This document shows positions 16,601 to 63,000 of a stretch of DNA of 64,000 bases, piece after piece (position 1 is the stretch's first letter; every line of letters starts with the position of its first letter). The translations under genes were made by a program, and so were the position numbers. Origin of the DNA: Chiridota heheva (taxonomy: Eukaryota > Echinodermata > Holothuroidea > Apodida > Chiridotidae); the NCBI GenBank assembly GCA_020152595.1, contig JAIGNY010001174.1, positions 1,196,001-1,260,000 of the forward strand, given 5' to 3'. Below the pieces are notes generated by a model. It did not search any database, was not told the origin of the DNA, and saw only the letters and a program-made list of their open reading frames with translations.

Positions 16601-16613
16601 CAATTAGTAGTTT

Positions 16614-26245: not shown

Positions 26246-28780
26246 TCTGAATCTGAATCGGTTAAGTCGGCAAAAATCCTTCAAGAGGACATGAACGCCA
26301 ACCGAGCGTAAATAGTATGAGTAAAAATAATATAAAAAAACTAGTTAGCAATACAGGTGTTAGTAAGTTTAGCTTTGAAACAGTTGAGACCTAGTGCATG
26401 AACAATGTCTGTGGGTAAAGCATTCCAATCCTTTAGTGTGTGAGGGAAGAAAGAGTGTTTATATACATTCTTTTTAGCATAGGGAACCTGGAAATTAAGG
26501 TCATGATTATTTCTTGTATCAGTTCTAACGGTGGGGATAAGTTCATCTTTATTGATGGCGACAAGATTGTTATTGATTTTATATAGCATATGCAGCCGGG
26601 TGTTGTATCGTCTTGTTTTAAGCAGGGGCCAATCTAATTTATAAAGCATGTTTTTTACACTAGATTTATAAGAGTAGTCTGCCATACAGAACCTGGCTGC
26701 TCTCCTTGAATAGATTCAAGTTTATCCACATCGCACTGGTGATGGGGGGTCCCAGACTGCAGATGCGTGCTCAAGTACTGGCCTGACTAGAGCTTTATAG
26801 GCAGTGGATTTAACGTCGGTGGGACAGTTTGAGAGGTTACGTTTTAAAAGGCCAAGTATAGAGTTAGCTTTCTTGGTTATGTTATGTATATGTTTATCCC
26901 ATCTAAGTTTATTATCAATTTCAACACCTAGGTATAGGTGGGAGTTGACATGTTTTAGTGGCTGGTTGCATAAGGTATAAACAGGTGATTTAAAGCATTT
27001 CTTAGAGGAAATTAAGAAGATGTAGCATTTAGAGGTGGAAATTCATTTGCCATTTGTTTTGCCATTGTTCAAGTTTGTTAAGATCATCTTGGAGGATTTG
27101 TTGGTCAGAGGGGTTATCAATTGTTCTGTACACAAGGCAGTCATCAGCAAACAGTCTGACTGTGCTGTTTATATTATCAGGGATGTCATTTACATATAAG
27201 AGGAAAAGTAATGGACCCAAGACAGTACCTTGTGGTACACCGGATAAAACCTGTTTAGAATCAGAGATTTCACTATCGCAAACAACACGCTGGATGCGGT
27301 TGTTGAGGAATGATGCAAACCAGGCCAGAAGATTTCCATCAATGCCATAGGCGGAAAGTTTGGATAACAGGCGCTGGTGGGGGACTTTATCAAAGGCTTT
27401 TGAGAAGTCAAGAATAGCCATAGAGACGTTACTGTTTTGGTCAATTTGTTTAGAGATATCATTTATTGTTAAGAGGAGTTGTGTTTCAGTCGATCTTTTG
27501 CACGGAAGCCATGTTGTAAATCAGTTAAGATATTATGCTCATCAAGGAATTTCATCACATGTGAGTGGATTATATGCTCAAGGATTTTACTACAAACGAG
27601 GTGAGGGTAATAGGTCTATAATTAGCTGGGTTTTGTTTATCACCTTTCTTAAAAACACTACATATGTTTGCTTCTTTCCACTTGTTAGGATAGTACCATT
27701 ATCGACAGAGGTTTGAAAGAGATCAGTTAGAATTTCATAGAGGTCATCAGCATGTGCTTTTAGAAACCATGGTGGTATTTGGTCAGACCTGAGGCTTTGT
27801 TGGGGCCTAGGTTATGCAGTTGCTTTTTGACACCTTCTGGGGTAATTATAAGTTGGTTTATTTTGCTGTTGGTAAGTGGTTTAGTTACAGGAATTTGGGA
27901 GGTGTTTTCTACTGTGAAAACACTGAAAAACTGGTCATTTAGAATGTTAGCTTTAGTTTTACTGTCACTGCAGAGTTTACTGTTATTTAGTAGATCAGAC
28001 ACACCTACAGAGTTACTTCTTAATCTTTTGATATAGGACCAAAATGCCTTTGGGTTTTCAAGTTAGTGAGTTTTTAAGTTTATCACAGATGAAGGTGTTT
28101 CTAGCTTCTTTGAGGTTTTTATGGACAGCCTTTCTAAAGCTTTTATAGGTAGTCCAGTCATTGGCTTGTTGATTAGTCTTAGCTTTTTTAAACAGTTTAT
28201 GTTTTTTCCTGCAGAGACGGCGTTGGATACGGGTAAACCAGGGCAGATTTAGTTTAGTTGAGGTGAATTTGTGAGGCGTGTTTTTATCTATAATCAATTT
28301 AATTTCTTGTTCAAAGAAATTCCATTTTTCATCAACATCAATGGAGGAATTAAATTGAGTATAATATTGCAGTTTAAATTTGGTCAGGTCTTCTTTTATT
28401 CGTGTTATGTTGGCTTTTTTCTTTAAATAGATTTTACGTTTAGGTAACTTTTTACGAGGGGGAGATATTTAGGGTCAATTCAACAATATCATGGTCACTT
28501 ATACCGGGAATGACATTAGCTGAGGTAACAGCTGGTGAATTGTTAGTAAAAACAAGATCAAGGATGTTGTTATCTCTGGTGGGTGACTGCACCATTTGAG
28601 TGAGATTGAATAAATTAGTCACTTCAAGAAGAATTTTGGCTGCTTCGGAGGAAGCGTTAGTTCCTGAAATAATGTTTTGACTCCAGTCAATATTAGGTTG
28701 GTTGAAATCACCAGCAAGAATAACATTGTTTTTGTCAGCATTTTTACTGAGTTGTTTATCTCACTAACACTAACAGTAAC
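26246..28780 (-). mobile_element. second-family non-LTR retrotransposon, 5'-truncated
   Basis: A minus-strand element with endonuclease C-terminus, reverse transcriptase and C-terminal domain, ending in a 3' UTR whose tail is GATTCAGATTCAGAA, a short TTCAGA-type repeat typical of CR1/L2/Jockey-like tails. Its protein and 3' end are unrelated at sequence level to the LINE at 2512-5298. It sits in sense orientation in intron 1 and its truncated 5' end is only about 80 bp from the exon 1 donor of the SLC37A-like gene. Confidence 0.88.
26341..28775 (-). pseudogene. LINE ORF2 remnant (second family)
   Basis: Reading the minus strand from 28775: endonuclease segment with NNVILAGDFNQPNIDW, NILDLVFTNN and GISDHD (28470-28760), so the GDFN and SDH catalytic motifs are present. 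Then a linker with LNLPWFTRIQRRLCRKK (28297-28058) and PEGVKKQLHNLGPNKASG (28002-27760). The reverse transcriptase at 27421-27029 has motif A as ILDFSKAFDKVPHQ, LSGVPQGTVLGPLLFLLYVN and LFADDCL (FADD near 27140-27154). The C-terminal domain at 26685-26341 has TRRYNTRLHMLYKI and HTLKDWNALP. Frameshifts separate these blocks, so it is non-functional. Confidence 0.9.
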
Positions 28781-33219: not shown

Positions 33220-33224
33220 ACGTG

Positions 33225-33640
33225 ATACAATAAAGCACGTTTCGTGTGACAATAAGAAGCATGCATGCATCGTGTGATAATAAGAAGCGTGCATGTTTCG
33301 TGTGACAATAAGAAGCATAAACTTGTTTCGTGTGACAATAAGAAGAATAAACTTGTTTCGTGTGACAATAAGAAGAATAAACTTGTTTCGTGTGACAATA
33401 AGAAGCGTGCATGTTTTGTGTGACAATAAGAAGCGTGCATGTTTTGTGTGACAATAAGAAGCATGAACTTGTTTCGTGTGACAATAAGAAGCGTGCATGT
33501 TTCCTGTGACAATAAGAAGCGTGCATGTGTTATGTGACAATAAGAAGCATGAACTTGTTTCGTGTGACAATAAGAAGCGTGCATGTTTCGTGTGACAATA
33601 AAAAGCGTGCATGTTTCCTGAGACAATACGAAGCAAGAGG
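33225..33640. repeat. 28/30-bp minisatellite, unit 1 (about 15 copies)
   Basis: Repeats of GTTTCGTGTGACAATAAGAA joined by GCGTGCAT (28-bp form) or GCATAAACTT (30-bp form). The same minisatellite opens units 2, 3 and 4 (near 37062, 39860 and 43546) with only 2-5 copies, so unit 1 is expanded. Minus-strand frames rich in SYCHTK are by-products. Confidence 0.93.
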
Positions 33641-34187
33641 ATGGAAAACAAGTAAAGGATACTCTTTGAATGGAATTTACACGAATGTGAGCTGTCGATT
33701 ATGATAAAGAATTTGTGTAATCTTTCTCCTCGCCCTGTCAGCCTGGTCCAACCAAATATTAATGACATCCTGGATTATCCTTTTCACTAATTTCAATTCA
33801 AGAAATAGAATAACAGTCACCCCATATCAATATATTCAACTCAAAATATTGATGTTGGGAATGGAAGGGGGTGGAGTGGGGTGGTAATGAGGTAGGTCGG
33901 GTAATGTGATAACATCTGTTCACCTAAAATTAATAGGGGATAAATCGCCAGCACCGGCTCCGCCGCCCTGTCTTAAAACGGTTGTGGGTAGGTGGAGGCA
34001 AACTGTTTATTTTTTTCTGGTCCAAGTTGGAGAAATTTTCGTTTCGAATTTCTAGTTTAGTTGCTCAAAAAGATTTTTGATTTGCGCTCCTTGACTGTTT
34101 TACATTTATACATGCTTTAATCATGTCAATGGTTTTGTCATGAACCAAAGGCACACTTTATGAATTAATGCTCGAGCTTTATTTCTA

Positions 34188-34316
34188 GACAAAAGACTGG
34201 TAAACAGCCTGCCAGCCAATCATAAAACTTTTAAGAGGAAAGGCATTTAAATATTTTACCGCTGAAAGTTTCAATTCGATATATATATATCCTTTCACCA
34301 GAGTTATATTCTAGTT
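34188..34316 (+). promoter_or_regulatory. U4 snRNA promoter, unit 1
   Basis: About 130 bp upstream of U4 is conserved in all four units while more distal spacer varies. It holds a CCAAT box at 34216-34220, a block TTTACCGCTGAAAGTTTCAA at about -62 to -43, where animal snRNA genes carry the proximal sequence element, and an AT-rich (AT)n stretch at about -40 to -26. The assignment as PSE is by position only. Confidence 0.6.
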
Positions 34317-34460
34317 ATCTTTGCGCAGAGGCGATATCGTAGTCAGTGAGGTTTAACCGAGACGCGATTATTGCTAATTGAAAACTTATCCCAATACCCC
34401 GCATTGGCGACGTGAAATACCGTCGACAGATGCAATTTTTCTCGGTTTCGAACGAAACCT
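34317..34460 (+). ncRNA. U4 spliceosomal snRNA, unit 1
   Basis: This 144-bp gene encodes the RNA that pairs with U6 in the U4/U6 and U4/U6.U5 snRNPs. It starts ATCTTTGCGCAG, has the 5' stem-loop (GATATCGTAGTCAGTGAGG to CCGAGACGCGAT), then the U6-pairing stretch TTATTGCTAATTGAAAACTT, the near-invariant CCCAATACCCCGC, an internal stem, the Sm site AATTTTT and a 3' hairpin GGTTTCG-AAC-GAAACC. Length and order match animal U4 (about 145 nt). Differences from the other units: GTTTAACCGAG in the 5' loop region (shared with unit 4) and CATTGGCG instead of CACTGGCG. All core elements are intact, so it could be functional. Confidence 0.95.
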
Positions 34461-34744
34461 AATTTATCAATCTAAACATACTGCAAACATAATTTATATA
34501 ATAGAAATCAAGGAGGTTGTATTTGCATTCATTCATCTTTCACTTTGTTTGATGTTGCAAGATAACTCAATTGGCTGCATTGTTGAGTATTTTGCGTGCA
34601 AAATGTAATAAAGGTATGGGCCAAAATTTTACAAATGGCTCCTTTTTAAGCTTCCCCATTGCTCAGGAGAACTGTTTTCAAATCCATTTGTTTTCTGCAA
34701 ATCTTTGTAAGCTTTGTATTTATACCCAGCTGATTCATAACCTT

Positions 34745-34860
34745 CTTGCAAAGGACAGAGCTTTAAACTTGAATATCTCCTCAATGGAATACACTATTTG
34801 AATGCTTTCTTCAGCATTTTCTTTCTTTCAATGTCCTCTTAATGAATTTTAAAATAACTT
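34745..34860. mobile_element. foldback-MITE end fragment inside the U4 unit
   Basis: On the minus strand this reads GAGGACATTGAAAGAAAG, AAATGCTGAAGAAAGCATTC and GAGGAGATATTCAAG, matching the terminal inverted repeat of the elements at 1051-1490 and 51300-51955. Equivalent fragments follow U4 in units 2 (near 38355-38470) and 3 (near 41215-41330), so it was present before the array amplified. Confidence 0.6.
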
Positions 34861-34899
34861 ATATACTTACGTGAACTCTGACCTAGCCTGTTATTTGAA

Positions 34900-34974
34900 G
34901 CGATAATTGCTAATCATACTTATCCCAATACCCCGCACTGGCGATGTGAAATACCATCGACATTAGCAATTTTT
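34900..34974 (+). pseudogene. truncated U4 pseudogene, unit 1
   Basis: A partial U4 copy from the end of the 5' stem-loop to the Sm site: GCGATAATTGCTAAT, ACTTATCCCAATACCCCGC, ACTGGCGATGTGAAATACC and AATTTTT. It lacks the first about 50 nt (all of U6 stem II and most of the 5' stem-loop), and in this unit also lacks the 3' hairpin. It cannot form a normal U4/U6 duplex. Confidence 0.88.
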
Positions 34975-36514
34975 GCAAAATTCCCGAAAATTTGCTTCAA
35001 GTCCTTATAATTAGCCGGCAGCAGACTATAGTTTTCCATCTACCAGGTTTTGGGGAGGCTCCGACTGAGCCTCCTGTATCCTGATCTCATAACATTTTGT
35101 CAATATGCGGGGCGATGTTCAATGGTCAACGTGTCGGATCCAGGGGCGTAACTAGATTTCGAGCACAGGAGAGTGTAAGACAAATTTGCCTGACGAAAGT
35201 TTGCACTTGTCTACAATCACACAATATAAAACAATTTGGAGAAGATTTCGCCCCCTTCCCTTTCCCCCCCCCTCCCCTATCCCAAAAAAAGCAATGTCAT
35301 CGCCAGACATATTGGCTTAGGACACAATACTCAAGTAGCAAACGCGGAAATGCAAAACAGCGACGCATTTACCCGCTTAACAGCTTAAGGCTCCTGGCAA
35401 CGTCCAGAGGTGAAACCTTGGATGCTTGGTAACAGGCTGAAAAGGCCTTGTTTTTGTTGGTCCAAAACGGCTGAAAATCAACACAAAGTTCGAAAATGTA
35501 ATTGATGAAAAGAAGACAATTCTAAATCATGTTATTGTCTAGGTTACCAGTTAAGAACAGGAAGATGAGAAATTCCCCCTCAAAATTGAGAGGAATTTGG
35601 GCAAAAATGTAAAGTTCGTGGAGCAAAGATTTGCCACCAAAATGTCTTAAAATTTAACACAAAGTTCCGAAATATAAATGAAAGATTCTGGAGTTCTAGG
35701 GCAAATCATGGGTATGGATTCAAAAAGGCACTATTGGAAAGGGGTCCAGGGGCGAAGCCCCAAAGTCTTTGAAGGTTTCTTGTCTTTGCTGCCCCAAAAT
35801 GGCTGAAAATAAATACAAACTGACAAGGTTGGGAAAAATTAGTGAAGATAAGAAAAATATATTCATGCGAAAATCAAGCATGATAAGCTTACCATATCTA
35901 AACAGGCAGAGAGAGAAATTTTTCCTGAGAATTAAGAGAACTCGGGAAAAGTTGCGCAGGTGTTCATGTGTAAAGCCTTGGTCTGAAGCTGTCTTGTTTT
36001 TCATCCCCAATATAGCTTAAAATCAACACAAAGTTCCCAAAATGTAAATGAAAAATCGTGGGTCCTGGGGCGAAGCAAGGGTAGAGAACCAAGAGAGGAC
36101 CCTTTTAAGGGGTCACAGAGCGAAGCCCCCGGAAACTTTTGATGTCCCAATATGGCTTAAATTTAAGATAAACTGACAATTTGAAAGTTATAAGAAATGG
36201 TTATACTGTTATAAGAAGACAGTTTGAAATTCTAATGCTAAAATCCACTCAAGATATAAGCATTATCAGATTATAGGGTTATCATTTCTACACAGACAAA
36301 AAGTGATTTTTTTTCTGAAAATTGAGAAAATTTGGGCAAAATTGTGCAGGCTTTGGGGATCAAGCCCCCTGTCCCCTCCCTCTCTTCTGGCTACGCCCCC
36401 TGTTTTTGATGCCCAAAACTGGCCCATGGTAATTCTGGCTCTGGATTTTAAACGTGTGTAGACAGGTAGACGGCATCTTTCATATAGTCCAAGTTGCCCA
36501 AGTCGAGCATGCCA
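34975..36514. repeat. U4-unit spacer with degenerate repeats and GGGGCGAAGCCCC hairpins (unit 1)
   Basis: The spacer begins with GATATGCGGGG-type sequence (CAATATGCGGGGCGATGTTC at 35100), then several diverged copies of a block with AAAATTGAGGAAATTYGGGCA-like, CCCCAATATGGCTTAAAAT-like and AACACAAAGTTCCGAAAAT-like words, often joined by the palindrome GGGGCGAAGCCCC (for example 35749-35761). It closes with a pyrimidine-rich tract near 36370-36385. No gene recognised. The equivalent region in unit 2 is about 0.8 kb shorter. Confidence 0.7.
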
Positions 36515-36970
36515 ATCAGCATCATGCAGAGTCGAGGGGAGGTGATTGTTATATCTAGCAGTTTAGACGATTCGGGAAACATTGCGACATATCTCTGATT
36601 TAAACAGTGCATCCAACATTTTAAATCTCTGTCTGACTAAGTGCCCCAGCAGTCAAGTATGATGTTGTGATAGCATCATGATGCCGAGTCGGGAGGACAT
36701 GATTGTGATATCTATAGACGATTCGGGCATGATTGAGATATTGCTCTCAAACAGTACATCTGACATTTTACATCTCTGCCCGACTAAGTGCTCAAGTACA
36801 AAATGTACAAGTATGATGTTGTCAGAATCATCAGATCATGCCGAGTCGGCGGTCGGATTCGAGGATATGATTCTGATATCTAGCTGAGTCGGGCATGGCT
36901 GACATGACTGAGAAATACTCTGATAAAAGTGCATCCGACATGTCTACAATTCTGCCGACTAAGATCGGTG
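36515..36970. repeat. about 150-bp subrepeats of the U4 unit (unit 1)
   Basis: Three diverged tandem blocks share ATGCCGAGTCGGGAGGACAT-like openings, ATGATTGTGATATCT, then CATCTCTGCCCGACTAAGTG. Equivalent blocks occur at about 39335-39765 and 43015-43440 in units 2 and 3. Confidence 0.8.
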
Positions 36971-37369
36971 TCCAATCAACAAACCAACTAATGTTATTAC
37001 CCAGAACAAGTATTTGGTCTTTTTTGCGAAGAAACAAAAACATAAAGGTATAACAATATTAATAACAATAAGAAGCATAAATGTTTCGTGTGACAATAAG
37101 AAGCGTGCATGTTTTCTGAGACAATACGAAGCAAGAGGATGGAAAACAAGTAAAGGATTCTCTTTGAATGGAATTTAGGCGAATGTGAGCTGTCGATTAC
37201 GATAACGAATTTGTGTAATCTTTCTCCTCGCCCTGTCGGCCTGGTCCGACCAAATGTTAAAGACATCCTGGATTATCCCTTTCAATAATTTCAATTTATG
37301 AAATAGAATAACAGTCATCCCATATCAATACATTCAACTCAAATTATTGACACTTATATTGTGATGGGG

Positions 37370-37430
37370 AAGGGGATGGTGGGGGGAGGGGATGGTGGGG
37401 GGAGGGGGGGGGAGAGGGGTCCGGTAACAT
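37370..37430. repeat. G-rich tract in unit 2
   Basis: Runs of GGGGAAGGGGATGGTGGGGG type. The same site in unit 4 (43930-44010) is a longer GGGGGTGGAGGGTGG tract, and in unit 3 a GTGTGTGTG run. This is a length-variable part of the unit. Confidence 0.8.
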
Positions 37431-37767
37431 AATGAAGAGTGTTCACATAATATTGGAGGGGCTAATGAGGTCGGGTAACGTGATAACATATGTTCACCTA
37501 AAATGAATAAGGGATATATCCCCCGGCCAGCACCGGCTCCGCCACCCTGTCTAAAGACGGTTGTGCGTAGATGGAGGCAAACTGATTATTTTTTCTGGTC
37601 CAACTTGGAGGAAAATTCGTTTCGATTCTCTAATTTAGTTTTTCAAAGAGGTTTTTAATTTGCGCTCCTTGACTGTTTTACATTTATGCATGCTTTAATC
37701 ATGTCAATGGTTTTGTCTTGAACAAAAGGCACACTTCATAGATTAATGCTCGAGTTTAATTTTTAGA

Positions 37768-37895
37768 CAAAAGACTGGTCACCAGCCTGCCAGCCAATCA
37801 TAAAACTTTCAAGAGGAAAGGCATTTAAATATTTTACCGCTGAAAGTTTCAATTCGATATATATATATCCCTTTCACCAGAGTTACATTCTAATT
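37768..37895 (+). promoter_or_regulatory. U4 snRNA promoter, unit 2
   Basis: Conserved upstream block with CCAAT at 37794-37798, PSE-position motif TTTACCGCTGAAAGTTTCAA at 37833-37852 and the AT-rich stretch next to TATCCCTTTCACCAGAG. Confidence 0.6.
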
Positions 37896-38039
37896 ATCTT
37901 TGCGCAGAGGCGATATCGTAGTCAGTGAGGTTTATCCGAGACGCGATTATTGCTAATTGAAAACTTATCCCAATACCCCGCACTGGCGACGTGAAATACC
38001 GTCGACAGATGCAATTTTTCTCGGTTTCGAACGAAACCT
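37896..38039 (+). ncRNA. U4 spliceosomal snRNA, unit 2
   Basis: A 144-bp U4 gene with intact 5' stem-loop (GGTTTATCCGAG form, as in most animals), U6-pairing region, CCCAATACCCCGC, Sm site AATTTTT and 3' hairpin. Identical to unit 3 by eye over the whole length. Confidence 0.95.
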
Positions 38040-38514
38040 AATTATCAATTTAAACATACTGCAAACATAATTTATTTATTAGAAATCAAGGAGGTTGCAT
38101 TTGCATTCATTCATCTTTCATTTTATTTGATATTAATAAGTTAGCCATGTTGCAAGATATCAACAAAAAAAACAGATTGGCTGCATGGTTGAGTATTTTA
38201 CCTTTAAAATCTAATGGAGGTATGGGCCAAAATTTTACAAATGGCTTCTTTCTAAGGTTCCCCATTGCTCAGGAGAACTGTTTTTAAATCTATCATGTAT
38301 TTGTTTTCTGCAAATCTTTGTAGGCTTTGTATTTATATCCAGCTGATTCATAACCTCCTTGCAAAGGACAGAGCTTTAAACTTGAATATCTCCTTAATGG
38401 AATACGCTATTTGAATGCTTTCTTCAGCATTTTCTTTTTTTCAATGTCCTCTTAATATATTTTTAAATAACTTATAAACTTACGTGAACCCTGACCTAGC
38501 CTGTTAACCGAAAA

Positions 38515-38603
38515 GCGATAATTGCTATTCATACTTATCCCAATACTCCGCACTGGCGATGTGAAATACCATCGACAATTTTTCTCGGTTTCTAAACAAA
38601 ACC
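38515..38603 (+). pseudogene. truncated U4 pseudogene, unit 2
   Basis: Same truncated U4 as in unit 1, but keeping a decayed 3' hairpin (CTCGGTTTCTAAACAAAACC). It has TACTCCGC where functional copies have TACCCCGC, and ATTGCTATTCAT in place of ATTGCTAATTGA, so the U6-pairing part is damaged. Confidence 0.88.
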
Positions 38604-39334
38604 TGCAAAATTCCCGAAAATTTGCTTCAAGTCCTTATAATTAGTTGACAGCAGACTATAGTTTTCCATCTACCAGGTCCTGGGGAGGATCCGACTGAGC
38701 CTCCTGTATCCTGATCTCATGACATTTTGTCAATATGCGGGGCGATGTTCAATGGTGAACGTTTTGGATTCAGAGGCCTAACTAGATTTCGAGCACAGGA
38801 GAGTGTAAGACAAATTTGTGTGACAAAATTTTGCACTTGTCTACAATCACACATTAAAAAAAAGAGAGAAAATCCCCCACCCCCCAATCCCTCCCCCCCC
38901 CCTTCCACCCCCACCAAAAAAAAGAAGCAATGGAAGCCCCTGGAAAATGTTGATGCCCCAATACGGCTTAAATTCAAAACAAACTGACAATTTGAAAGTT
39001 ATAAGAAATGGCTATACTGTTATAAGAAGACAGTTTGAAATTCTAATGCTAAAATCCACTCAGATATAAGCATTTTATGATTATCATTTCTACACAGACA
39101 ATGAGGAGAAATTTTTCCTGAAAATTAAGAAAATTTGGGCAAAAATGTGCAGGCTATGGGGATCAAGCCCCATGTCCCTCCCTCTCTCTCTCTCTCTCTC
39201 TCTCTGGCTACGCCCCCTATTTTTGATGCTTAAAACTAGCCCATGATAATTATGGCTCTGGATTTTAAACGTGTGTAGACAGGTAGACGGGCATCTTTCA
39301 TATAGTCCAAGTTGCCCAAGTCAGACCCAATCAG
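38604..39334. repeat. shortened U4-unit spacer (unit 2)
   Basis: Compared with units 1 and 3, the sequence jumps from AAGCAATGG (near 38932) directly to AAGCCCCTGGAAAATGTTGA. This removes about 0.8 kb corresponding to about 41802-42605 of unit 3. It contains a (CT)n tract near 39178-39206. Confidence 0.85.
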
Positions 39335-39858
39335 CATCATGCAGAGTCGAGGGGAGATGATTGTTATATCTAAACGATTTGGGAAACATTGCAATATATC
39401 TCTGATTTAAACAGTACATCCAACATTTTAAATCTCTGTGCGACTAAGTGCCCCAGCAGCCAAGTATGATGTTGTTATAGCATCATGATGCCTAGTCGGG
39501 AGGACATGATTCTGATATTCGGGCAAGATTGAGATATACTCTCAAACATTACATATGACATTTTACATCTCTGCCCGACTAAGTACTCAAGTACAAAATG
39601 TACAAGTATGATGTTGTCAGAATCATCAGATCATGCCGAGTCGGCAGTCGGATTCGAGGATATGATTCTGATATCTAACTGAGTCGGGCATGGCTGACAT
39701 GACTGAGATCTATTCTGATAAAAGTGCATCCGATGAGTCTACAATTCTGCCGACTAAGATCGGTGTCCAATCAACAAACCAACTATGTTATTATCCAGAA
39801 CAAGTATTTTGTCTTTTTTACGAAGAAACAAAAACCCAAAGGTATAACAATGTTAATA
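39335..39858. repeat. about 150-bp subrepeats and unit end (unit 2)
   Basis: Equivalent of 36515-37051. The middle subrepeat has lost CTATAGACG-type sequence after TTCTGATA. It ends at the AACAATGTTAATAACAATAA junction that leads into the next minisatellite. Confidence 0.75.
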
Positions 39859-40020
39859 ACAATAAAAAGCATGCATGTTTCGTGTGACAATAAGAAGCGT
39901 GTATGTTTCCTGTGACAATACGAAGCATAAACTTGTTTCGTGTGACAATAAGAAGAGTGCATGTTTCGTGTGACAATAGGAAGCGTGCATGTTTCCTGTG
40001 ACAATACGAAGCATGAGGAT
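39859..40020. repeat. 28/30-bp minisatellite, unit 3 (about 5 copies)
   Basis: Five units of GTTTCGTGTGACAATAAGAA / GTTTCCTGTGACAATACGAA. Near-identical to the run at 43545-43690 in unit 4. Confidence 0.9.
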
Positions 40021-40628
40021 GGAAAAGGAGTACGGGATACTCTTTGAATGGAATTTATACGAATGTGAGCTGTCGATTATGATAAAGCATTTGTATTATC
40101 TTTCTCCTCGCCCTGTCGGCATGGTCCAACCAAATGTTAAAGACATCCTGGATTATCCTTTTCAATAATTTCAATTTAGGAAATAGAATAACAGTCATCC
40201 CATATCAATACATTCAACTCAAATTATTAACACTTATATTGTGATGGGGAGGGATGGTGTGTGTGTGTGGGGTAAAAAGGTCCGGTAACGTACTGAAGAG
40301 TGTTCACATAATATTGGAGGGGCTAATGAGGTCGGGTAACGTGATAACATAGGTTCACTTAAAATGAATAAGGGATATATCCCCCGGCCAGCACCGGCTC
40401 CGCCACCCTGTCTAAAGACGGTTGTGCGTAGATGGAGGCAAACTGATTATTTGTTCTGGTCCAAGTTGGAGGAAATTTCGTTTCGATTCTCTAGTTAAGT
40501 TTCTCAAAACGGTTTTTAATTTGCGCTCCTTGACTGTTTTACAATTATGCATGCTTCAATCATGTCAATGGTTTTGTCTTGAACAAAAGGCACACTTCAT
40601 AGATTAATGCTCGAGTTTAATTTTTAGA

Positions 40629-40756
40629 CAAAAGACTGGTCACCAGCCTGCCAGCCAATCATAAAACTTTCAAGAGGAAAGGCATTTGAATATTTTACCG
40701 CTGAAAGTTTTAATTCGATATATATATATCCCTTTCACCAGAGTTATATTCTAGTT
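40629..40756 (+). promoter_or_regulatory. U4 snRNA promoter, unit 3
   Basis: CCAAT at 40655-40659, PSE-position motif TTTACCGCTGAAAGTTTTAA at 40694-40713 (one T for C change against units 1, 2 and 4), AT-rich stretch, then the U4 start. Confidence 0.6.
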
Positions 40757-40900
40757 ATCTTTGCGCAGAGGCGATATCGTAGTCAGTGAGGTTTATCCGA
40801 GACGCGATTATTGCTAATTGAAAACTTATCCCAATACCCCGCACTGGCGACGTGAAATACCGTCGACAGATGCAATTTTTCTCGGTTTCGAACGAAACCT
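40757..40900 (+). ncRNA. U4 spliceosomal snRNA, unit 3
   Basis: A 144-bp U4 gene with all structural elements intact (5' stem-loop, TTATTGCTAATTGAAAACTT, CCCAATACCCCGC, AATTTTT Sm site, 3' hairpin). It matches unit 2 by eye, so these two are the most recently homogenised pair. Confidence 0.95.
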
Positions 40901-41375
40901 AATTATCGATCTAAACATACTGCAAACCTAATTTATTTATTAGAAATCAAGGAGGTTGCATTTGCTTTCATTCATCTTTAATTTTATTTGATCTTGGTTA
41001 GTTAACCATGCTGCAAGATATCAAAAACAAAAACAGATTGGCTGCATGGTTGAGTATTTTACCTTTAAAATCTAATGGAGGTATGGGCTAACATTTTACA
41101 AATGGCTTCTTTCTAAGGTTCCCCATTGCTCAGGAGAACTGTTTTTAAATCCATCATGTATTTGTTTTCTGCAAATCTTTGTAGGCTTTGTATTTATATC
41201 CAGCTGATTCATAACCTCCTTGCAAAGGACAGAGCTTTAAACTTGAATATCTCCTTAATGGAATACGCTATTTGAATGCTTTCTTCAGCATTTTCTTTTT
41301 TTCAATGTCCTCTTAATATATTTTTAAATAACTTATAAACTTACGTGAACCCTGACCTAGCCTGTTAACCGAAAA

Positions 41376-41464
41376 GCGATAATTGCTATTCATACTTATC
41401 CCAATACTCCGCACTGGCGATGTGAAATACCATCGACAATTTTTCTCGGTTTCTAAACAAAACC
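41376..41464 (+). pseudogene. truncated U4 pseudogene, unit 3
   Basis: Same form as in unit 2, including TACTCCGC and the decayed 3' hairpin. Missing the 5' about 50 nt of U4. Confidence 0.88.
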
Positions 41465-43014
41465 TGCAAAATTCCCGAAAATTTGCTTCAAGTCCTTATA
41501 ATTAGCTGACAGCAGACTATAGTTTTCCATCTACCAGGTCTTGGAGAGGCTCCGACTGAGCCTCCTGTATCCTGATCTTATAACATTTTGTCGATATGCG
41601 GGGCGATGTTCAATGGTCAACGTTTTGGATCCAGAGGCGTAACTAGATTTCGAGCACAGGAGGGTGTAAGACAAATTTGTGTGACAAAAGTTTGCACTTG
41701 TCTGCAATCACACAATATAAAATAATTGAGAGAAAATCCCCCACCCCAACCCCTCCCCCCCCCTTCCACCCCCACCAAAAAAAAAAAAAAAAAGCAATGG
41801 CATCGCTAGACATATTGGCTTGGGACACAATACTCAAGTACCAAACACGGAAATGCAAAACCGCCGCACTTACCCGCTTAAGCTCCTGGCAACGTCCAGG
41901 GATGAACCTGAAAAGTTCTTTTTTGTTGGCCAAAATTGCTGAATACCAACACAAAGTTCGAAAATGTTTTTGATGAAGAGAAGACAATTTTAAATCATGT
42001 TATAATCTAGGTTACCATTTATAAACAGGCAGATGAGAAATTCCCCCTTGAAATTAAGAGGAAGTCGGACAAATTGTAAAGTTCGTGGGCAAAGACTTGC
42101 CACTAAAATGTCTTAAAATAAACACAAAGTTCCGAAATATAAGTGAAATATTCTGGAGTTCTGGAGCAAAGCATGGGTATGGATCCAGAGGATCCAGAAG
42201 GGGACTGTTGAGAAGGGATCCAGGGGCGAAGCCCCGGAGTCTTTGAAGGCTTCTTGTCTTTGCTGCCCCAAAATGGCTGAAATTCATCACAAACTGACAA
42301 AGTTGTGGAAAATTAAGTGAAGATAAGAAAAAAATGTTAATGCTTAAATCAAGCATGATAAGCTTACCATATCTAAACGGGCAGAGAAGAAATTTCTCCT
42401 GAGAATTAAGAAAATTCGGGAAAAATTGCGCAGGTGTTTATTAGTAAAGCCTTGGTCTGAAGATGTCTTGTTTTTGATCCTCCAATATAGCTCAAAATCA
42501 ACACAAAGTTCCCAAAATGTAAATGAAAAATCGTGGGTCCTGGGGCTGTGGGGCGAAGCAAGGGTAGAGAACCAGGTGGGGCCCCTTTGAAGGGTCCACA
42601 GGGCGAAGCCCCGGAAACTTTTGATGCCCCAATATGGCTTAAATTTAGAACAAACAGACAATTTGAAAGTTATAAGAAATGGCTATACTGTTATAAGAAG
42701 ACAGTTTGAAATTCTAATGCTAAAATCCACTCAGATATAAGCATTATATGATTATCATTTCTACACAGACAATGAGGAGAAATTTTTCCTGAAAATTGAA
42801 AAAAATTTGGGCAAAAATGTGCAGGCTATGGGGAACAAGCCCCATGTCCCCTCCCCTCTCTCTCTCTCTCTCTCTCTCTCTGGCTACGCCCCCTATTTTT
42901 GATGCTTAAAACTGGCCCATGATAATTATGGCTCTGGATTTTAAACGTGTGTAGACAGGTAGACGGGCATCTTTCATATAATACAAGTTGCCCAAGTCAA
43001 ACCCAATCAGCATC
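41465..43014. repeat. U4-unit spacer (unit 3)
   Basis: Full-length spacer like unit 1: GATATGCGGGGCGATGTTC near 41594, C-rich and A-rich tract at 41740-41795, repeated GGGGCGAAGCCCC (42223-42235) and related blocks, and a (CT)n tract near 42854-42882. No gene recognised. Confidence 0.7.
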
Positions 43015-43544
43015 ATGCAGAGTCGAGGGGAGATGATTGTTATATCTAAACGATTTGGGAAACATTGCGATATATCTCTGATTTAAACAGTACATCCAAC
43101 ATTTTAAATCTCTGTCTGATTAAGTGCCCCAGCAGCCAAGTATGATGTTGTTATAGCATCATGATGCCGAGTCGGGAGGACATGATTCTGATATTCGGGC
43201 AAGATTGGGATATACTCTCAAACATTACATATGACATTTTACATCTCTGCCCGACTAAGTACTCAAGTACAAAATGTACAAGTATGATGTTGTCAGAATC
43301 ATCAGATCATGCCGAGTCGGCAGTCGGATTCGAGGATATGATTCTGATATCTAACTGAGTCGGGCATGGCTGACATGACTGAGATCTACTCTGATAAAAG
43401 TGCATCCGATGAGTCTACAATTCTGCCGACTAAGATCGGTGTCCAATCAACAAACCAACTATGTTATTATCCAGAACAAGTATTTGGTCTTTTTTACGAA
43501 GAAACAAAAACCCAAAGGTATAACAATGTTAATAACAATAAAAA
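43015..43544. repeat. about 150-bp subrepeats and unit end (unit 3)
   Basis: Near-identical to 39335-39858, supporting recent duplication of this part between units 2 and 3. Confidence 0.8.
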
Positions 43545-43690
43545 GCATGCATGTTTCGTGTGACAATAAGAAGCGTGTATGTTTCCTGTGACAATACGAA
43601 GCATAAACTTGTTTCGTGTGACAATAAGAAGAGTGCATGTTTCGTGTGACAATAGGAAGCGTGCATGTTTCCTGTGACAATACGAAGCGT
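43545..43690. repeat. 28/30-bp minisatellite, unit 4 (about 5 copies)
   Basis: Same order of variant units as in unit 3, which supports copying of the whole block. Confidence 0.9.
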
Positions 43691-44361
43691 GAGGATGGAA
43701 AAGGAGTACGGGATACTCTTTAAATGGAATTTACACGAACAGACAAATGTGAGCTGTCGATTATGATAAAGCATTTGTGTTATCTTTCTCCTCGCCCTGT
43801 CAGCATGGTCCGACCAAATGTTAAAGACATCCTGGATTATCCTTTTCAATAATTTCAATTTAGGAAATAGAATAACAGTCATCCCATATCAATACATTCA
43901 ACTCAAATTATTAACACTTATATTGTGATGGGGAGGGATGGTGTGGGGGTGGAGGGGTGGGGGTGGAGGGTGGGGGTGGAGGGGGTGGGTGGTGGAGGGT
44001 TGGAGGGGGAAGGTCCGGTAACGTAATGAAGAGTGTTCACATAATATTGGAGTCGCTAATGATTTTGGGTAACGTGATAACATATGTTCACCTAAAATGA
44101 ATAAGGGATATATCCCCCGGCCAGCACCGGCTCCGCCACCCTGTCTAAAGACGGTTGTGCGTAGATGGAGGCAAACTGATTATTTTTTCTGGTCCAAGCT
44201 GGAGGAAATTTCGTTTCGATTCTCTAGTTAAGTTTCTCAAAGAGGTTTTTAATTTGCGCTCCTTGACTGTTTTACATTTATGCAGGCTTCAATCATGTCA
44301 ATGGTTTTGTCTTCAACAAAAGGCACACTTCATAGATTAATGCTCGAGTTTAATTTTTAGA

Positions 44362-44489
44362 CAAAAGACTGGTCACCAGCCTGCCAGCCAATCATAAAAC
44401 TTTCAAGAGGAAAGGCATTTGAATATTTTACCGCTGAAAGTTTCAATTTGATATATATATATCCCTTTCACAAGAGTTACATTCTAATT
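44362..44489 (+). promoter_or_regulatory. U4 snRNA promoter, unit 4
   Basis: CCAAT at 44388-44392, PSE-position motif TTTACCGCTGAAAGTTTCAA at 44427-44446, AT-rich stretch. The last bases before the gene, ACATTCTAATT, match unit 2. Confidence 0.6.
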
Positions 44490-44633
44490 ATCTTTGCGCA
44501 GAGGCGATATTGTAGTCAGTGAGGTTTAACCGAGACGCGATTATTGCTAATTGAAAACTTATCCCAATACCCCGCACTGGCGACGTGAAATACCGTCGAC
44601 AGATGCAATTTTTCTCGGTTTCGAACGAAACCT
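44490..44633 (+). ncRNA. U4 spliceosomal snRNA, unit 4
   Basis: A 144-bp U4 gene with two differences from units 2 and 3 in the 5' stem-loop: GATATTGTAG instead of GATATCGTAG (nt 22, base of the stem, changing a C-G pair to U-G) and GTTTAACCGAG instead of GTTTATCCGAG. All other core elements are intact. The unit ends 59 bp downstream, so this copy lacks the pseudogene and the rest of the spacer. Confidence 0.93.
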
Positions 44634-44692
44634 AATTATCAATCTAAACATACTGCAAACATAATTTATTTATTAGAAATCAAGGAGGTTGC

Positions 44693-45124
44693 AAAAAAAA
44701 CCTTGAACCATTCTAAGGACCCCTTATTTGCTTATCATATTATTTGGGACTGTCTCATTGAAGTTTCGGATTCATGCTAAACTGATAAATGTATTCTCCC
44801 AAATTTTGGTTCTAAATATCTTGATCTAAGAGTTTTGTGGTAGCAAAAAAATAAGGGTCACGAGAAATGTTCAGACCGATAAAAGTTGGAATTTTTTTTT
44901 GGAGAAGGGGTGGGTGTGGGGAGATTGCCTCTAAAGCTATAATGCTGTCGTGTATGCTTTCGAAATACGTCAATCGAAAAGTGTCTCTAATATCCTGTGT
45001 ACCCCCTCCCTTGCTCATTAGATTCACATATCTTCCGCCATCCCTGCCTACCAGGGCTTCGCCAATGGACTACAATTTCACCCGATTTTTCTCAATTTGT
45101 ATAGGAAATTTATTTCTACTCTGC
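44693..45124. other. unannotated stretch beyond the U4 array
   Basis: Sequence changes abruptly at AAGGAGGTTGC to an A-run and unrelated DNA. No gene recognised. Confidence 0.5.
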
Positions 45125-45365
45125 TGCTCTGCCTACTTAAAAGTGGTAATCCTAATATACGAGTAGATTTTAACATGAGAATTTAAAATAGTCTTCTTCT
45201 CATCAAGTATACATTGTTAAACTTTGTGTTGATTTTAAGCCAGTTTAGGGTATCAAAAACAAGAAATCTTCAGACCAGAGCTTCATGAACCCCACAATTT
45301 TGCCCGAATTGTCTCCCTTTTCAGGAAAATTCCCAGGCTCATGCCTGTTTATAAACGGCAGTAGC
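45125..45365 (-). repeat. inverted fragment of the U4-unit spacer family
   Basis: On the minus strand this reads GGGAATTTTCCTGAAAA, AATTCGGGCAAAATTGTG, GCTCTGGTCTGAAGATTTC, TTGTTTTTGATACCC and AAAATCAACACAAAGTT, the same word order as the spacer at 35930-36060 and 42390-42520. It is diverged and inverted relative to the array. Confidence 0.7.
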
Positions 45366-45529: not shown

Positions 45530-46200
45530 TTTTTATTTGTGTCGACTGAATTATTGTTAATTTTGTATCAAAAATCCTCAGTTTTAGATTGAACAACCTT
45601 CAATTTTGGACCAAAATTTTCAATTTGCGGTCAAAAATTGTTCAATTTTACATTTCAAGATCTGCTCCTTCAAACTTTTGCCACAACTCTATTCCTGTTT
45701 TTATCTATACTGCCATACCATAGTATGAAGGAGAAGGTGACACACATGCCAGCTGACCGGCCTTTGTACATGTCGTTAACATGGTCCCACATTTAAATGA
45801 CTGAGATCCTAGTGGGAGTTATGATTACATAACATTACACATGCCGCCATTTTGGTAAGGAATGACCTTGGGTGGTCTCTAAGTGGCAAGTCCCGTTGAC
45901 TAAAGAACAGATCTTGGAATGTGATCAAAAATCATACACATGCCGCCATTTTGGTAAGGAATGACCTTGGGTGGTCTCTAAGTGGCAAGTCCCGTTGACT
46001 AAAGAACAGATCTTGGAATGTGATCAAAAATCTCAAATTTTAAGTCAAAAATCTTCACTTTTGGACTACAAATCTTCAATTTTTCGACCAAAAGTTACAA
46101 TTGAGGGTCAACTGTTTTGAAGTTTGGACCAAAACCTACAACTTGGGATCCGCAAAAATCTTTAATTTTGTACCAAGTGTCCTTCCAAAATCTTCCTGTA
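45530..46200. repeat. degenerate 21-25-bp repeat tract
   Basis: Words of the type TTCAATTTTGGACCAAAA recur many times on both sides of the 99-bp duplication (45545-45665 and 46030-46190). Confidence 0.7.
45837..46032. repeat. 99-bp direct duplication, near-exact
   Basis: ACACATGCCGCCATTTTGGT starts at 45837 and at 45936. The sequence is identical through GTGATCAAAAATC (ending at 45933 and 46032), so at least 97 bp match without change, which points to a very recent duplication. Confidence 0.97.
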
Positions 46201-53819: not shown

Positions 53820-54350
53820 GGTTTTGAGGCACAGCATTGTATGGAAAATAGATGCGATGGAATGCGAGGCACGATATTGTATGGGAAATGGATGAGATGG
53901 GATGCGAGGCACAGTATTGTATGGGAAATGGATGAGATGGAATGCGAGGCTCAGTATTGTATGGCATATGGGAAATGGATGAGATGGAATGCGAGGCACA
54001 GTATTGTATGACATATAGAAAATAGATGAGATGGAATGCGAGGCACTGTATCGTATGGCAGATGGAAAATGGATGGGATGGAATGCGAGGCAAGTATTGC
54101 ATGGCAAATGGGAAATGGATGGGATGGAATGTGAGGCACAGTATTGTATGGCATATGGGAAATGGATGAGATGGAATGTGAGGCACAGTATTGATGGCAT
54201 ATGGGAAATGGATGAGATGAGATGTAATGCACAGTATTGTATGGCATATGGGAAATGGATGAGATGGAATGTGATGCACAGTATTGTATGGCATATGAGA
54301 AATGGATGGGATGGAATGCGAGGCACAGTATTGTATGGCATATGGGGCAT
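53820..54350. repeat. 47-bp minisatellite with a 37/38-bp short form
   Basis: Units of GAAATGGATGAGATGGAATG + CGAGGCACAGTATTGTATGG + CATATGG. Successive GTATTG markers at 54141, 54188, 54234, 54281 and 54328 give periods of 47, 46, 47 and 47. Early units (53860-53960) lack the GCATATGG segment and are shorter. Confidence 0.9.
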
Positions 54351-56700: not shown

Positions 56701-57060
56701 GCTTGTCTCTTATGCTCTCTCTTATGCCCAGTTTATTTTAAGGTATGAACAGGTATGATTTTAATGTTTACCAAAAGATCTTAAGAAACCTTGAATTTCA
56801 AAATTTGGAAATTTGTAATGAATGCAAAGTTGTTGTTTCAAATCCTCTTCATTGTAGCCAGATTCTCCCAATCAAAATACTTGAGGGAAGGACCAAAAAA
56901 GGAACATCACACTGTGCACAAACTTTAAAATGCAATTAGGACATTCCATATCTCCCTGAGTAGAATATGATATCAACTTGACTTTTGTACCAAATTGGAA
57001 GTAAAAGTATGCTTTTTCAAAAAGAATTTTACAAAAAACCATGGGAATAAATCTTTAGGT
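56701..57060. other. flank of the satellite array
   Basis: AT-rich unique-looking sequence with no gene recognised. The transition to the satellite at 57061 is abrupt. Confidence 0.5.
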
Positions 57061-60000
57061 TGCAGCCGACTGGAGGTTGCGAGCGACTGGAGGTTGCGAG
57101 CGACTGGAGGTTGCGAGGCGACTGGAGGTTGCGGCGACTGGAGGTTGCGGCGACTGGAGGTTGCGGCGACTGGAGGTTGCGGCGACTGGAGGTTGCGAGC
57201 GACTGGAGGTTGCGAGCGACTGGAGGTTGCGAGCGACTGGAGGTTGCGAGCGACTGGAGGTTGCGAGCGACTGGAGGTTGCGAGCGACTGGAGGTTGCGG
57301 CGACTGGAGGTCTGGCGACTGCTGGAGGTTGCGGCGACTGCAGGTTGCGGCGACTGCAGGTTGCGGCGACTGCAGGTTCGCGGCGACTGCAGGTTCGCGA
57401 CCGACGCAGGTTGCGACCGACTGCAGGTTGCGACCGACTGCAGGTTGCGACCGACTGCAGGTTGCGACCGACTGCAGGTTGCGACCGACTGCAGGTTGCG
57501 ACCGACTGCAGGTTGCGACCGACTGCAGGTTGCGACCGACTGCAGGTTGCGACCGACTGCAGGTTGCGACCGACTGCAGGTTGCGACCGACTGCAGGTTG
57601 CGACCGACTGCAGGTTCGCGACCGACTGCAGGTTGCGACCGACCGACTGCAGGTTGCGACCGACCGACTGCAGGTTGCGGCAGCGACTGCAGGTTCGAGC
57701 AACTACAGGTTGCGAGCGACTGCAGGTTGCGACCGACTGGAGGTTGCGACCGACTGCAGGTTGCTACCGACTGCAGGTTGCTACCGACTGCAGGTTGCGA
57801 CTGACTGGAGGTTGCGAGCGACTGGAGGTTGCCAGCGACTCAAGTTTGCGAGCGACTGGAGGTTGCGACCGACTGCAGGTTGCGACCGACTGCAGGTTGC
57901 GAGCGACTGGAGGTTGCGAGCGACTGGAGGTTGCGAGCGACTCGAGTTTGCGACCGACTGCAGGTTGCGACCGACTGCAGGTTGCGACCGACTGCAGGTT
58001 GCGACCGACTGAAGGTTGCGACCGACTGCAGGTTGCGACCGACTGGAGGTTGCGAGCGACTGGAGGTTGCGACCGACTGGAGGTTGCGACGCTGGAGGTT
58101 GCGGCGACTGGAGGTTCGCGACCGACTGCAGGTTGCGACCGACTGCAGGTTCGCGACCGACTGCAGGTTGCGACCGACTGCAGGTTGCGACCGACTGCAG
58201 GTTCTGGCGACTGGAGGTTGCGACTGACTGAAAACTGCAGGTTGCAACCGACTGCAGGTTGCGACCGCCTGCAGGTTACGACCGACTGAAGGTTGCGAGC
58301 GACTGGAGGTTGCGAGCTACTGGAGGTTGCGACCGACTGCAGGTTGCGACCGACTGGAGGTTGCGGCGACTGCAGGTTCGCGGCGACTGGAGGATGCGCA
58401 GCGACTCGAGTTTCGCGGCGACTGGAGGTTGCGACCGACTGCAGGTTGCGACCGAATTGCAGGTTGCGACCGACTGCAGGTTGCGACCGACTGAAGGTTG
58501 CGACCGACTGCAGGTTGCGACCGACTGGAGGTTCTGGCGACTGGAGGTTGCGGCGACTCGAGTTCGGCGACTGGAGGTTCGCGACCGACTGCAGGTTGCG
58601 ACCGACTGCAGGTTGCGACCGACTGAAGGTTCGCGGCGACTGGAGGTTGCGACCGCTGGAGGTTCGCGGCGACTGCAGGTTGCGACCGACTGCAAGTTGC
58701 GACCGACTGCAGGTTGCGACCGACTGCAGGTTGCCACCGACGGCAGGTTGCGACCGACTGCAGGTTGCGAGTGACTGGAGGTTGCGGCGACTGGAGGTTG
58801 CGGCGACTGGAGGTTGCGGCGACCGGCGACTGGAGGTTGCGAGCGACTGGAGGTTGCGAGCGACTGGAGGTTGCGACCGACGGCAGGTTGCGACCGACTG
58901 CAGGTTGCGAGTGACTGGAGGTTGCGAGCCACTGGAGGTGCGGCGACTGGAGGTTGCGGCGACTGGAAGTTGCGAGCGACTGGAGGTTGCGAGCGACTGG
59001 AGGTTGCGAGCGACTGGAGGTTGCGAGCGACTGGAGGTTGCGAGCGACTGGAGGTTGCGATCGACTGGAGGTTGCGACCGACTGGAGATTGCGACCGACT
59101 GAAGGTTGCGACCGACTGCAGGTTGCGACCGACTGGAGGTTGCGACCGACTGGAGATTGCGACCGACTGAAGGTCGCGACCGACTGCAGGTCGCCATCGA
59201 CGGCAGGTTGCGACCGACTGGAGGTTGCGAGTGACTGGAGGTTGCGGCGACTGGAGGTTGCGAACGGCGACTGGAGGTTCGCGGCGACTGGAGGTTGCGG
59301 CGACTGGAAGTTGCGGCGACTGGAGGTTGCGAGCGACTGGAGGTTGCGAGCGACTGGAGGTTGCGACCGACTGCAGGTTGCGACCGACTGAAGGTTGCGA
59401 CAGACTGCAGGTTGCGACCGACTGCAAGTTGCGACCGACTGCAGGTTGCGACCGACTGCAGGTTGCCATCGACGGCAGGTTGCGACCGACTGCAGGTTGC
59501 GAGTGACTGGAGGTTGCGAGCGACTGGAGGTTGCGAGCGACTGCAGGTTGCGAGCGACTGGAGGTTGCGAGCGACTCGAGTTTGCGAGCGACTGGAGGTT
59601 GCGACCGACTGCAGGTTGCGACCGACTGCAGGTTGCGACCGACTGCAGGTTGCGACCGACTGCAGGTTGCGACCGACTGCAGGTTGCGACCGACTCGAGG
59701 TTGCGACTGACTGAAAACTGCAGGTTGCAACCGACTGCAGGTTGCGACCGCCTGCAGGTTCGACCGACTGAAGGTTGCGGCGACTGGAGGTTGCGAGCTA
59801 CTGGAGGTTGCGACCGCTAGAGGTTGTGAGCGACTGGAGGTTCTGCGGCGACTGGAGGTTGGAGCGACTGGAGGTTCGCGGCGACTGCAGGTTGCGACCG
59901 CTGGAGGTTGTGGCGACTGGAGGTTGCGGCGACTGGAGGTTCGCGGCGACTGCAGGTTGCGGCGACTGCAGGTTGCGGCGACTGCAGGTTGCGGCGACTG

Positions 60001-63000
60001 GAGGTGTCGACCGACTGCAGGTTGCGACCGACTGCAGGTTGCGCGACCGACTGTAGGTTGCAAACACTGGAGGTTCGGCGGCTGCGAGTGCGAGCGACTG
60101 GAGGTTGCGACCGACTGGAGGTTGCGACCGACGGCAAGTTCGCGACCGACTGCAGGTTGCGAGTGACTGGAGGTTGCGGCGACTGGAGGTTGCGAGCGAC
60201 TGGAGGTTGCGAGCGACTGGAAGTTCGCGAGCGACTGGAGGTTGCGACCGACTGGAGGTTGCGATCGACTGACTGGAGGTTGCGAGCGACTGCAGGTTGC
60301 TACCGACTGCAGGTTGCTACCGACTGCAGGTTGCGACCGACTGCAGGTTGCGACCGACTGCAGGTTGCGAGCGACTGGAGGTTGCCAGCGACTGCAGGTT
60401 CGCGGCGACTGCAGGTTGCGGCGACTGCAGGTTGCGGCGACTGCAGGTTGCGGCGACTGGAGGTTCGCGGCGACTGGAGTTTGCGGCGACTGGAGGTTGC
60501 GACCGACTGCAGGTTCGCGACCGACTGCAGGTTCGCGACCGACTGCAGGTTGCGACCGACTGCAGGTTGCTACCGACTGAAGGTTCGCGACCGACTGCAG
60601 GTTCGCGACCGACTGGAGGTTGCGACCGACTGAAGGTTCGCGACCGACTGGAGGTTGCGACCGCTGGAGGTTCGACTGCGACCGACTGCAGGTTGCGACC
60701 GACTGCAGGTTGCGACCGACTGCAGGTTGCGACCGACTGCAGGTTGCGACCGACTGGAGGTTCGGCGCGACTGGAGGTTGCGGCGACTGGAGGTTGCGGC
60801 GACTGGAGGTTCTGGCGACTGGAGGTTCGCGACCGACTGCAGGTTCGCGACCGCTAGAGGTTGTGGCGACTGCAGGTTCGCGGCGACTGGCGGTTGCAAC
60901 CGACTGCAGGTTGCGACCGCCTGCAGGTTACGACCGACTGAAGGTTGCGGCGACTGGAGGTTGCGAGCTACTGCAGGTTGCGACCGACTGCAGGTTGCGA
61001 CCGACTGGAGGTTGCGAGCGACTCGAGTTTGCGACCGACTGCAGGTTGCGACCGACTGCAGGTTGCGACCGACTGAAGGTTGCGACCGACTGCAGGTTGC
61101 GACCGACTGCAGGTTGCGACCGACTGCAGGTTCGCGGCGACTGGAGGTTCGCGACCGACTGAAGGTTCTGGCGACTGGAGGTTGCGACCGCTGGAGGTTG
61201 CGGCGACTGCAGGTTGCGGCGACTGCAGGTTCGCGACCGACTGCAGGTTGCGACCGACTGCAGGTTGCGACCGACTGCAGGTTGCGACCCGACTGCAGGT
61301 TGCGGCGACTGGAGGTTGCGGCGACTGGAGGTTGCGGCGACTGGAGGTTCTGGCGACTGGAGGTTGCGGCGACTGGAGGTTGCGACCGGCGGCAGGTTGC
61401 GACCGACTGCAGGTTGCGGCGACTGGAGGTTGCGAGCCACTGGAGGTTGCGGCGACTGGAGGTTTGCGGCGACTGGAGGTTGCGGCGACTGGAGGTTGCG
61501 GCGACTGGAGGTTGCGGCGACTGGAGGTTGCGAGCGACCGACTGAAGGTTGCGACCGACTGCAGGTTGCGACCGACTGCAGGTTGCTAGCGACTGGAGGT
61601 TGCGGCGACTGGAGGTTGCGGCGACTGGAGGTTGCGAGCGACTGCAGGTGGCGGCGACTGGAGGTTGCGGCGACTGGAGGTTGCGGCGACTGGAGGTTGC
61701 GGCGACTGGAGGTTGCGGCGACTGGAGGTTGCGGCGACTGGAGGTTGCGGCGACTGGAGGTTGCGGCGACTGGAGGTTGCGGCGACTGGAGGTTGCGACC
61801 GACTGGAGATTGCGACCGACTGAAGGTTGCGACCGACTGCAGGTTGCGACCGACTGCAGGTTGCGAGCGACTGGAGGTTGCGAGCGACTGGATGTTGCGA
61901 GCGACTGAAGGTTGCGGCGACTGAAGGTTGCGAGCGACTGAAGGTTGCGAGCGACTGCAGGTTGCGAGCGACTGGAGGTTGCGAGCGACTCGAGTTTGCG
62001 AGCGACTGGAGGTAGCGACCGACTGCAGGTTGCGACCGACTGCAGGTTGCGACCGACTGCAGGTTCGCGACCGACTGGAGGTTGCGGCGACTGGAGGTTG
62101 CGGCGACTGGAGGTTGCGGCGACTGGAGGTTCGCGGCGACTGGAGGTTGCGAGCGACTGGAGGTTGCGAGCGACTGGAGGTTGCGAGCGACTCGAGTGTG
62201 CGAGCGACTGCAGGTTGCAACCGACTGCAGGTTGCGACCGCCTGCAGGTTACGACCGACTGAAGGTTGCGAGCGACTGGAGGTTGCGAGCTACTGGAGGT
62301 TGCGAGCTACTAGAGGTTGCGACCGCTAGAGGTTGTGAGCGACTGCAGGTTGCGAGCGACTGGCGGTTCGGCGACTGCAGGTTGCGACCGCTGGAGGTTG
62401 TGAGCGACTGGAGGTTGCGAGCGACTGCAGGTTGCGACTGACTGCAGGTTGCGACCGACTGGAGGTGTCGACCGACTGCAGGTTGCGACCGACTGCAGGT
62501 TGTGACCGACTGCAGGTTGCTAACACTGGAGGTTGCGGCAGGCCGCGAAAGTCGGCGACTGGAGGTTGTGACCGACTGGAGGTTGCGACCGACGGCAGGT
62601 TGCGACCGACTGCAGGATGCGACCGACTGGAGGTTGCGGCGACTGGAGGTTGCGGCGACTGGAGGTTGCGGCGACTGGAAGTTGCGAGCGACTGGAGGTT
62701 GCGACCGACTGGAGGTTCTGCGATCGACGACTGGAGGTTGCGGCGACTGCAGGTTGCGACTGACTGCAGGTTGCGCGCGCGACCGACTGCAGGTTGCGAC
62801 CGACTGCAGGTTGCGATCAGCTGGAGGTTGCGACCGACTGGAGGTTGCGACCGACTGGAGGTTGCGACCGCTGGAGGTTGTGGCGGCTGCAGGTTGCGAC
62901 CGACTGCAGGTTGCGACCGACTGCAGGTTGCGACCGACTGCAGGTTGCGACAGACTGCAGGTTGCGACCGACTGCAGGTTGCGACCGACTGCAGGTTGCT

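Follow-up and report, generated by a model that had tools for sequence, protein, structure and literature searches.

The question raised by this locus is whether a repeated block in the middle of a 64-kb window of the Chiridota heheva genome (the whole stretch of DNA that was analyzed) is a set of working U4 snRNA genes, how its units came to resemble each other, and how far such an arrangement differs from those already known. An earlier note, made from the letters of the sequence, had described the block as four head-to-tail U4 genes. We consider it very probable that four functional U4 genes make up a short tandem array at this locus, with the unit layout and the history proposed below, a reading that is based on sequence comparison, RNA models and motif searches.

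Four U4 genes and their upstream blocks

The covariance search that the earlier note had proposed as a check was run over the whole window with Rfam cmscan. It returned exactly four matches above the gathering score, all of them to U4 (RF00015; gathering score 46 bits) and on the plus strand. All four are full length (model positions 1–138, E values of 5e-26 to 1e-25) and score 116.1–117.2 bits, which bears out the U4 identity claimed from invariant blocks. The start-to-start spacings of 3,579, 2,861, and 3,733 bp, with the genes head to tail in one orientation, agree with the described arrangement of four 144-bp genes in units of 2.8–3.8 kb, and the blocks, lengths, and coordinates given for it are correct (Table 1). 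Both self-alignment and repeat families show that the gene and its flanks are repeated together, head to tail and in the same orientation. The length of 144 nt is the span to ...AAACCT, with presumed RNA ends; the RF00015 model stops 3 nt sooner.

Table 1. Features of the array, with positions in the 64-kb window
Feature	Position	Strand	Remarks
28-bp minisatellite, unit 1	33235..33635		14 copies, TRF; left array edge
PSE-like + TATA-like block, gene 1	34254..34286	+	0 mismatches by construction
U4 snRNA gene 1, 144 nt	34317..34460	+	loop UUUAA; T at nt 88; RF00015 117.2 bits over 34317-34457
Truncated U4-like copy, unit 1	34897..34974	+	U4 nt 45-124; no 3' terminal stem-loop; probable pseudogene
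28-bp minisatellite, unit 2	37065..37133		2.5 copies, TRF
PSE-like + TATA-like block, gene 2	37832..37864	+	0 mismatches
U4 snRNA gene 2	37896..38039	+	loop UUUAU; RF00015 117.2 bits over 37896-38036
Truncated U4-like copy, unit 2	38504..38604	+	U4 nt 37-144; probable pseudogene
28-bp minisatellite, unit 3	39859..40015		5.5 copies, TRF
PSE-like + TATA-like block, gene 3	40693..40725	+	1 mismatch
U4 snRNA gene 3	40757..40900	+	loop UUUAU; RF00015 117.2 bits over 40757-40897
Truncated U4-like copy, unit 3	41365..41465	+	identical to unit 2 copy; probable pseudogene
28-bp minisatellite, unit 4	43535..43691		5.5 copies, TRF
PSE-like + TATA-like block, gene 4	44426..44458	+	1 mismatch
U4 snRNA gene 4	44490..44633	+	loop UUUAA; U22-G50 wobble; RF00015 116.1 bits over 44490-44630
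Downstream flank of gene 4, to end of array homology	44634..44693	+	self-BLAST ends 44691-44693

When the four genes are aligned, their differences are confined to three of the 144 columns (nt 22, 40, and 88); genes 2 and 3 are identical, and the remaining five of the six gene pairs are 98.6% alike, with two differences each. All 11 pairs of the 5' stem-loop model are kept in genes 1 and 4. Genes 2 and 3 retain 10 of these 11; in both, U36 faces U40 instead of forming the pair that closes the loop, and the loop sequence is UUUAU, which we take to be the human U4 form. A U24-G48 wobble is present in all four genes, and gene 4 has U22-G50 as a second one. Stems I and II of the U4/U6 duplex were computed with a generic U6 core rather than this genome's U6, and in all four genes they yield -8.6 and -26.7 kcal/mol, with one mismatch within stem II. 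The Sm site AAUUUUU lies at nt 118–124 between two predicted 3' stems in each of the genes, and its U120–124 is the only run of at least four U in the RNA. Since a T5 run inside the RNA would terminate polymerase III, and one at the Sm site would thus cut the transcript short, we infer that each U4 gene is transcribed separately by RNA polymerase II; the product would then gain an Sm ring and pair with U6 in the U4/U6 di-snRNP.

The conserved sequence that had been reported upstream of each gene was recovered as the 33-mer TTTTACCGCTGAAAGTTTCAATTCGATATATAT, taken from gene 1, where it spans positions -63 to -31, and found at -64 to -32 before the other three, so that its distance to the gene is constant within 1 bp. 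Allowing up to three mismatches, it has four matches in the 64 kb, all upstream of U4 genes and with zero or one mismatch, compared with none in 100 shuffles; the match at gene 1, the source of the pattern, is by construction. The inner 17 bases alone return the same four places, with 0.23 matches expected by chance. In place and look, TTTTACCGCTGAAAGTTTCAATTCGATATATAT is consistent with a PSE combined with a TATA box, labels that we assign from position and from what we take to be a resemblance to such elements. In Drosophila, both gene classes have the PSEA ~40–60 bp before the start site, and the TATA box affects efficiency rather than polymerase choice (PMC4227766). Taken together, the low variation, the 5' stem-loop, the possible U6 pairing, and the PSE- and TATA-like block make all four U4 genes look functional.

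Truncated U4-like copies in units 1–3

Units 1–3 each hold, in addition, a 5'-truncated U4-like copy that starts ~0.6 kb past the gene start and that the earlier note had overlooked; unit 4 is without this region because its homology ends ~200 bp past the gene start. The resemblance to U4 was seen by BLAST, both for copy 1 (86.25% over 80 columns against U4 gene 2, E 6.9e-22) and for the unit 2 copy (80.7% over 109 columns, E 5.6e-23); in the alignment, the latter has lost bases ahead of its Sm-type run and also following nt 62. In the Rfam search, copy 1 is the next-best U4 match after the four genes, with 24.6 bits at 34874–34991 (E 0.17) and hence below the threshold of 46, copies 2 and 3 are absent from the matches listed at E values up to 5, and no truncated copy reaches a full-length RF00015 match above the gathering score.

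These copies are most likely pseudogenes that were amplified together with the unit and are older than that amplification, a reading that follows from the missing 5' part, from the absence of a PSE-like block, and from conservation no better than that of the flanks. They lack the first 36–44 nt of U4 and with them U6 stem II and half of the 5' stem-loop. The best PSE-like match within 250 bp of them reaches 11–12 of 23 positions, below the median of 13 for 250-bp control stretches (maximum 16, n = 132). Between units, 11 of 84 columns vary in the copies and 27 of 396 in their flanks (p 0.07), the direction being that of less constraint. Further losses affect the 3' part, where copy 1 misses the terminal stem-loop and copies 2 and 3 miss bases just before the Sm-type run. 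As to how the copies arose, the longest word shared between their two sides is 6–7 nt and no clear target-site duplication was seen among the direct repeats around them, and retro-insertion is therefore neither shown nor excluded.

Some features point the other way. All three copies retain an AATTTTT run of the Sm type as well as the inner 3' stem. Where the four genes have C95-G106 in this stem, every copy has U95-A106, so that both partners of the pair differ. This paired change counts against the pseudogene reading, but it concerns a single pair and could be due to chance. If the copies were alive, they would presumably give rise to a short U4-like RNA with a role of its own, for example as an Sm-binding decoy; given the loss of at least U4 nt 1–36, the lack of a promoter-like block, and a variability that is, if anything, raised, we regard this as extremely unlikely. 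It is also very unlikely, though conceivable, that the ancestor of the copies was another U4 variant, formerly active and characterized by the U-A pair in the 3' stem. In that case the array would record the birth and death of U4 paralogues within a single repeat unit, and the copies might still yield a short Sm-bound RNA.

Unit layout, divergence, and history of the array

With the truncated copies read as probable pseudogenes, a unit would consist, in order, of a minisatellite, an upstream region of ~0.7 kb that carries a promoter of the PSE+TATA type, the 144-nt gene, the truncated pseudogene (units 1–3), and a spacer. The 28-bp minisatellite heads the units, and the left edge of the array falls inside that of unit 1. 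At the other end, unit 4 can be compared with the other units only to about +203. A stretch of ~0.8 kb is common to spacers 1 and 3 and is absent from spacer 2, which lies between units 2 and 3.

Several other repeats were observed in and around the array. Short dispersed repeats occur in the unit spacers (35447–36035 and 41908–42510) and, inverted, just right of the array (45164–45351), at ~75–78% identity; a 99-bp unit is present twice with 100% identity at 45836–46032, just outside the array; a 47-bp minisatellite of about 9–12 copies lies at 53826–54346; and a G+C-rich 7-kb minisatellite with the 17-bp unit AGGTTGCGGCCGACTGG (~410 copies, 57057–64000) reaches the window end. The open reading frames listed were 240 of at least 60 aa for 1–56900 and 60 of at least 130 aa for the whole window. 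Pfam was run on eight, with reverse transcriptase or endonuclease domains in four, one of them (2504–2956) under the Pfam cut-off, and nothing in the other four. LINE-type retrotransposon fragments lie at 2504–5153 (+), 14164–16613 (-), and 27029–28468 (-), with Pfam reverse transcriptase at 3543–4457 and 27029–27520 and endonuclease at 16179–16613 and, sub-cut-off, at 2504–2956. A reverse transcriptase protein search had 2,651 relatives, and among the 120 listed a single one bore an animal name (Mytilus edulis). A tRNA search by ARAGORN under the bacterial code was negative, and a U4 core pattern had no matches in a scan of viral contigs, from which records of the same genome may be excluded. 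Other weak Rfam listings at E values up to 5, such as mir-297 on AT repeats and CrcZ, fell short of the threshold and were regarded as chance matches.

Compared with the three variable columns in 144 of the gene, there are 30 in 200 at -300 to -100 (Fisher p 2.5e-5), five in the first 58 downstream columns (p 0.045), and seven in 99 within the 100 bp upstream, the last difference not being significant (p 0.096); all of these p values are rough, because columns are not independent events. With no significant excess of variation in the upstream 100 bp, the effects of selection on gene and promoter are inseparable from those of recent homogenization of the whole core. Purifying selection and conversion together would hold the U4 genes alike.

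Outside the gene, the units are 69–100% alike per block between -900 and +1010, and the closest pair changes along the unit. At -1130 to -900, unit 1 fails to align with the rest (45–48%). Units 3 and 4 are nearest at -900 to -450 (94–99%), units 2 and 3 at -450 to -300 and again at +250 to +712 (95–100%), the latter region being absent from unit 4. Farther downstream, pairs 1/3 and 2/3 tie at +712 to +800 (95.5%) and are about equal at +800 to +900 (95.0% and 94.0%). Such mosaic divergence fits unequal exchange or conversion between units. In addition, units 1 and 2 align with units 3 and 4 in a two-unit register (33481–38099 with 39859–44693, 85.5%), and because this register exists, the history of the array is likely to include a step in which two adjacent units were duplicated together. 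We propose unequal exchange as the way in which the array expanded, possibly with the aid of the minisatellite.

The same observations have to be weighed against an assembly artefact, in which the units would all derive from a single locus or from two, as when a pair of haplotypes is joined end to end. Both the two-unit register and the distribution of the ~0.8-kb stretch could result if a two-unit locus had been falsely duplicated in this way. However, such a duplication predicts that units 1 and 3 and units 2 and 4 are nearest to each other throughout, whereas the nearest pairs are 3/4 upstream and 2/3 at +250 to +712, and spacers 2 and 3 are closer (96–100%) than spacers 1 and 3 (85–95%) where all three align well. 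Nor are the units likely to be machine copies of one locus, given block identities that range down to 69% and the stretch missing between units 2 and 3. The mosaic divergence thus speaks against a simple assembly artefact, which we judge unlikely and which would still leave at least two tandem U4 genes.

Comparison with known snRNA loci

The U1 and U2 genes of sea urchins form tandem arrays likewise, but of other snRNAs than U4, and U4 snDNA has reportedly been mapped in fish. The same likeness and difference hold for human U2, most genes of which (RNU2-1) lie in large tandem arrays, in which each chromosome has from 6 to more than 80 copies (PMC13083260), compared with four copies here. U4 itself is represented by three isoforms in Drosophila, one of them a likely pseudogene (passages of PMC4291461), and appears to be single-copy in the tunicate Didemnum vexillum (passages of PMC5006418). 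U4 copy number and linkage thus vary widely, and the four-gene array belongs to a known type of organization.

Interest in U4 genes and isoforms has followed the link between RNU4-2 variants and a neurodevelopmental disorder (PMC11030480), and an array with four genes of three sequence types, in which pseudogenes are part of the unit, lends itself to studying how U4 genes stay alike. In the part of the literature searched, we found no tandem animal U4 unit of this form. The suggestion in the earlier note that the U4 unit may be undescribed stands at most for this particular pseudogene-bearing unit, which may indeed be so; it does not extend to the organization, which is not new in kind because linked U4 genes have been published for human and Arabidopsis.

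According to passages of PMC11030480, human RNU4-1 and RNU4-2 are contiguous U4 genes on chromosome 12, four nucleotides apart. They resemble the present genes in being neighbors with few differences (here two in five of the six pairs and none in the sixth), but there are two genes there and four in a repeated unit here, and a pseudogene within the unit, as in units 1–3, is not mentioned in those passages. In Arabidopsis, U4 likewise occurs in repeated snRNA clusters, but as U1-U4 pairs, with seven such clusters on two chromosomes and pair members 180–300 nt apart (passages of PMC545797). Set beside these loci, the array is real but ordinary, a normal RNA gene family in an ordinary arrangement, and it leaves the general picture unchanged.
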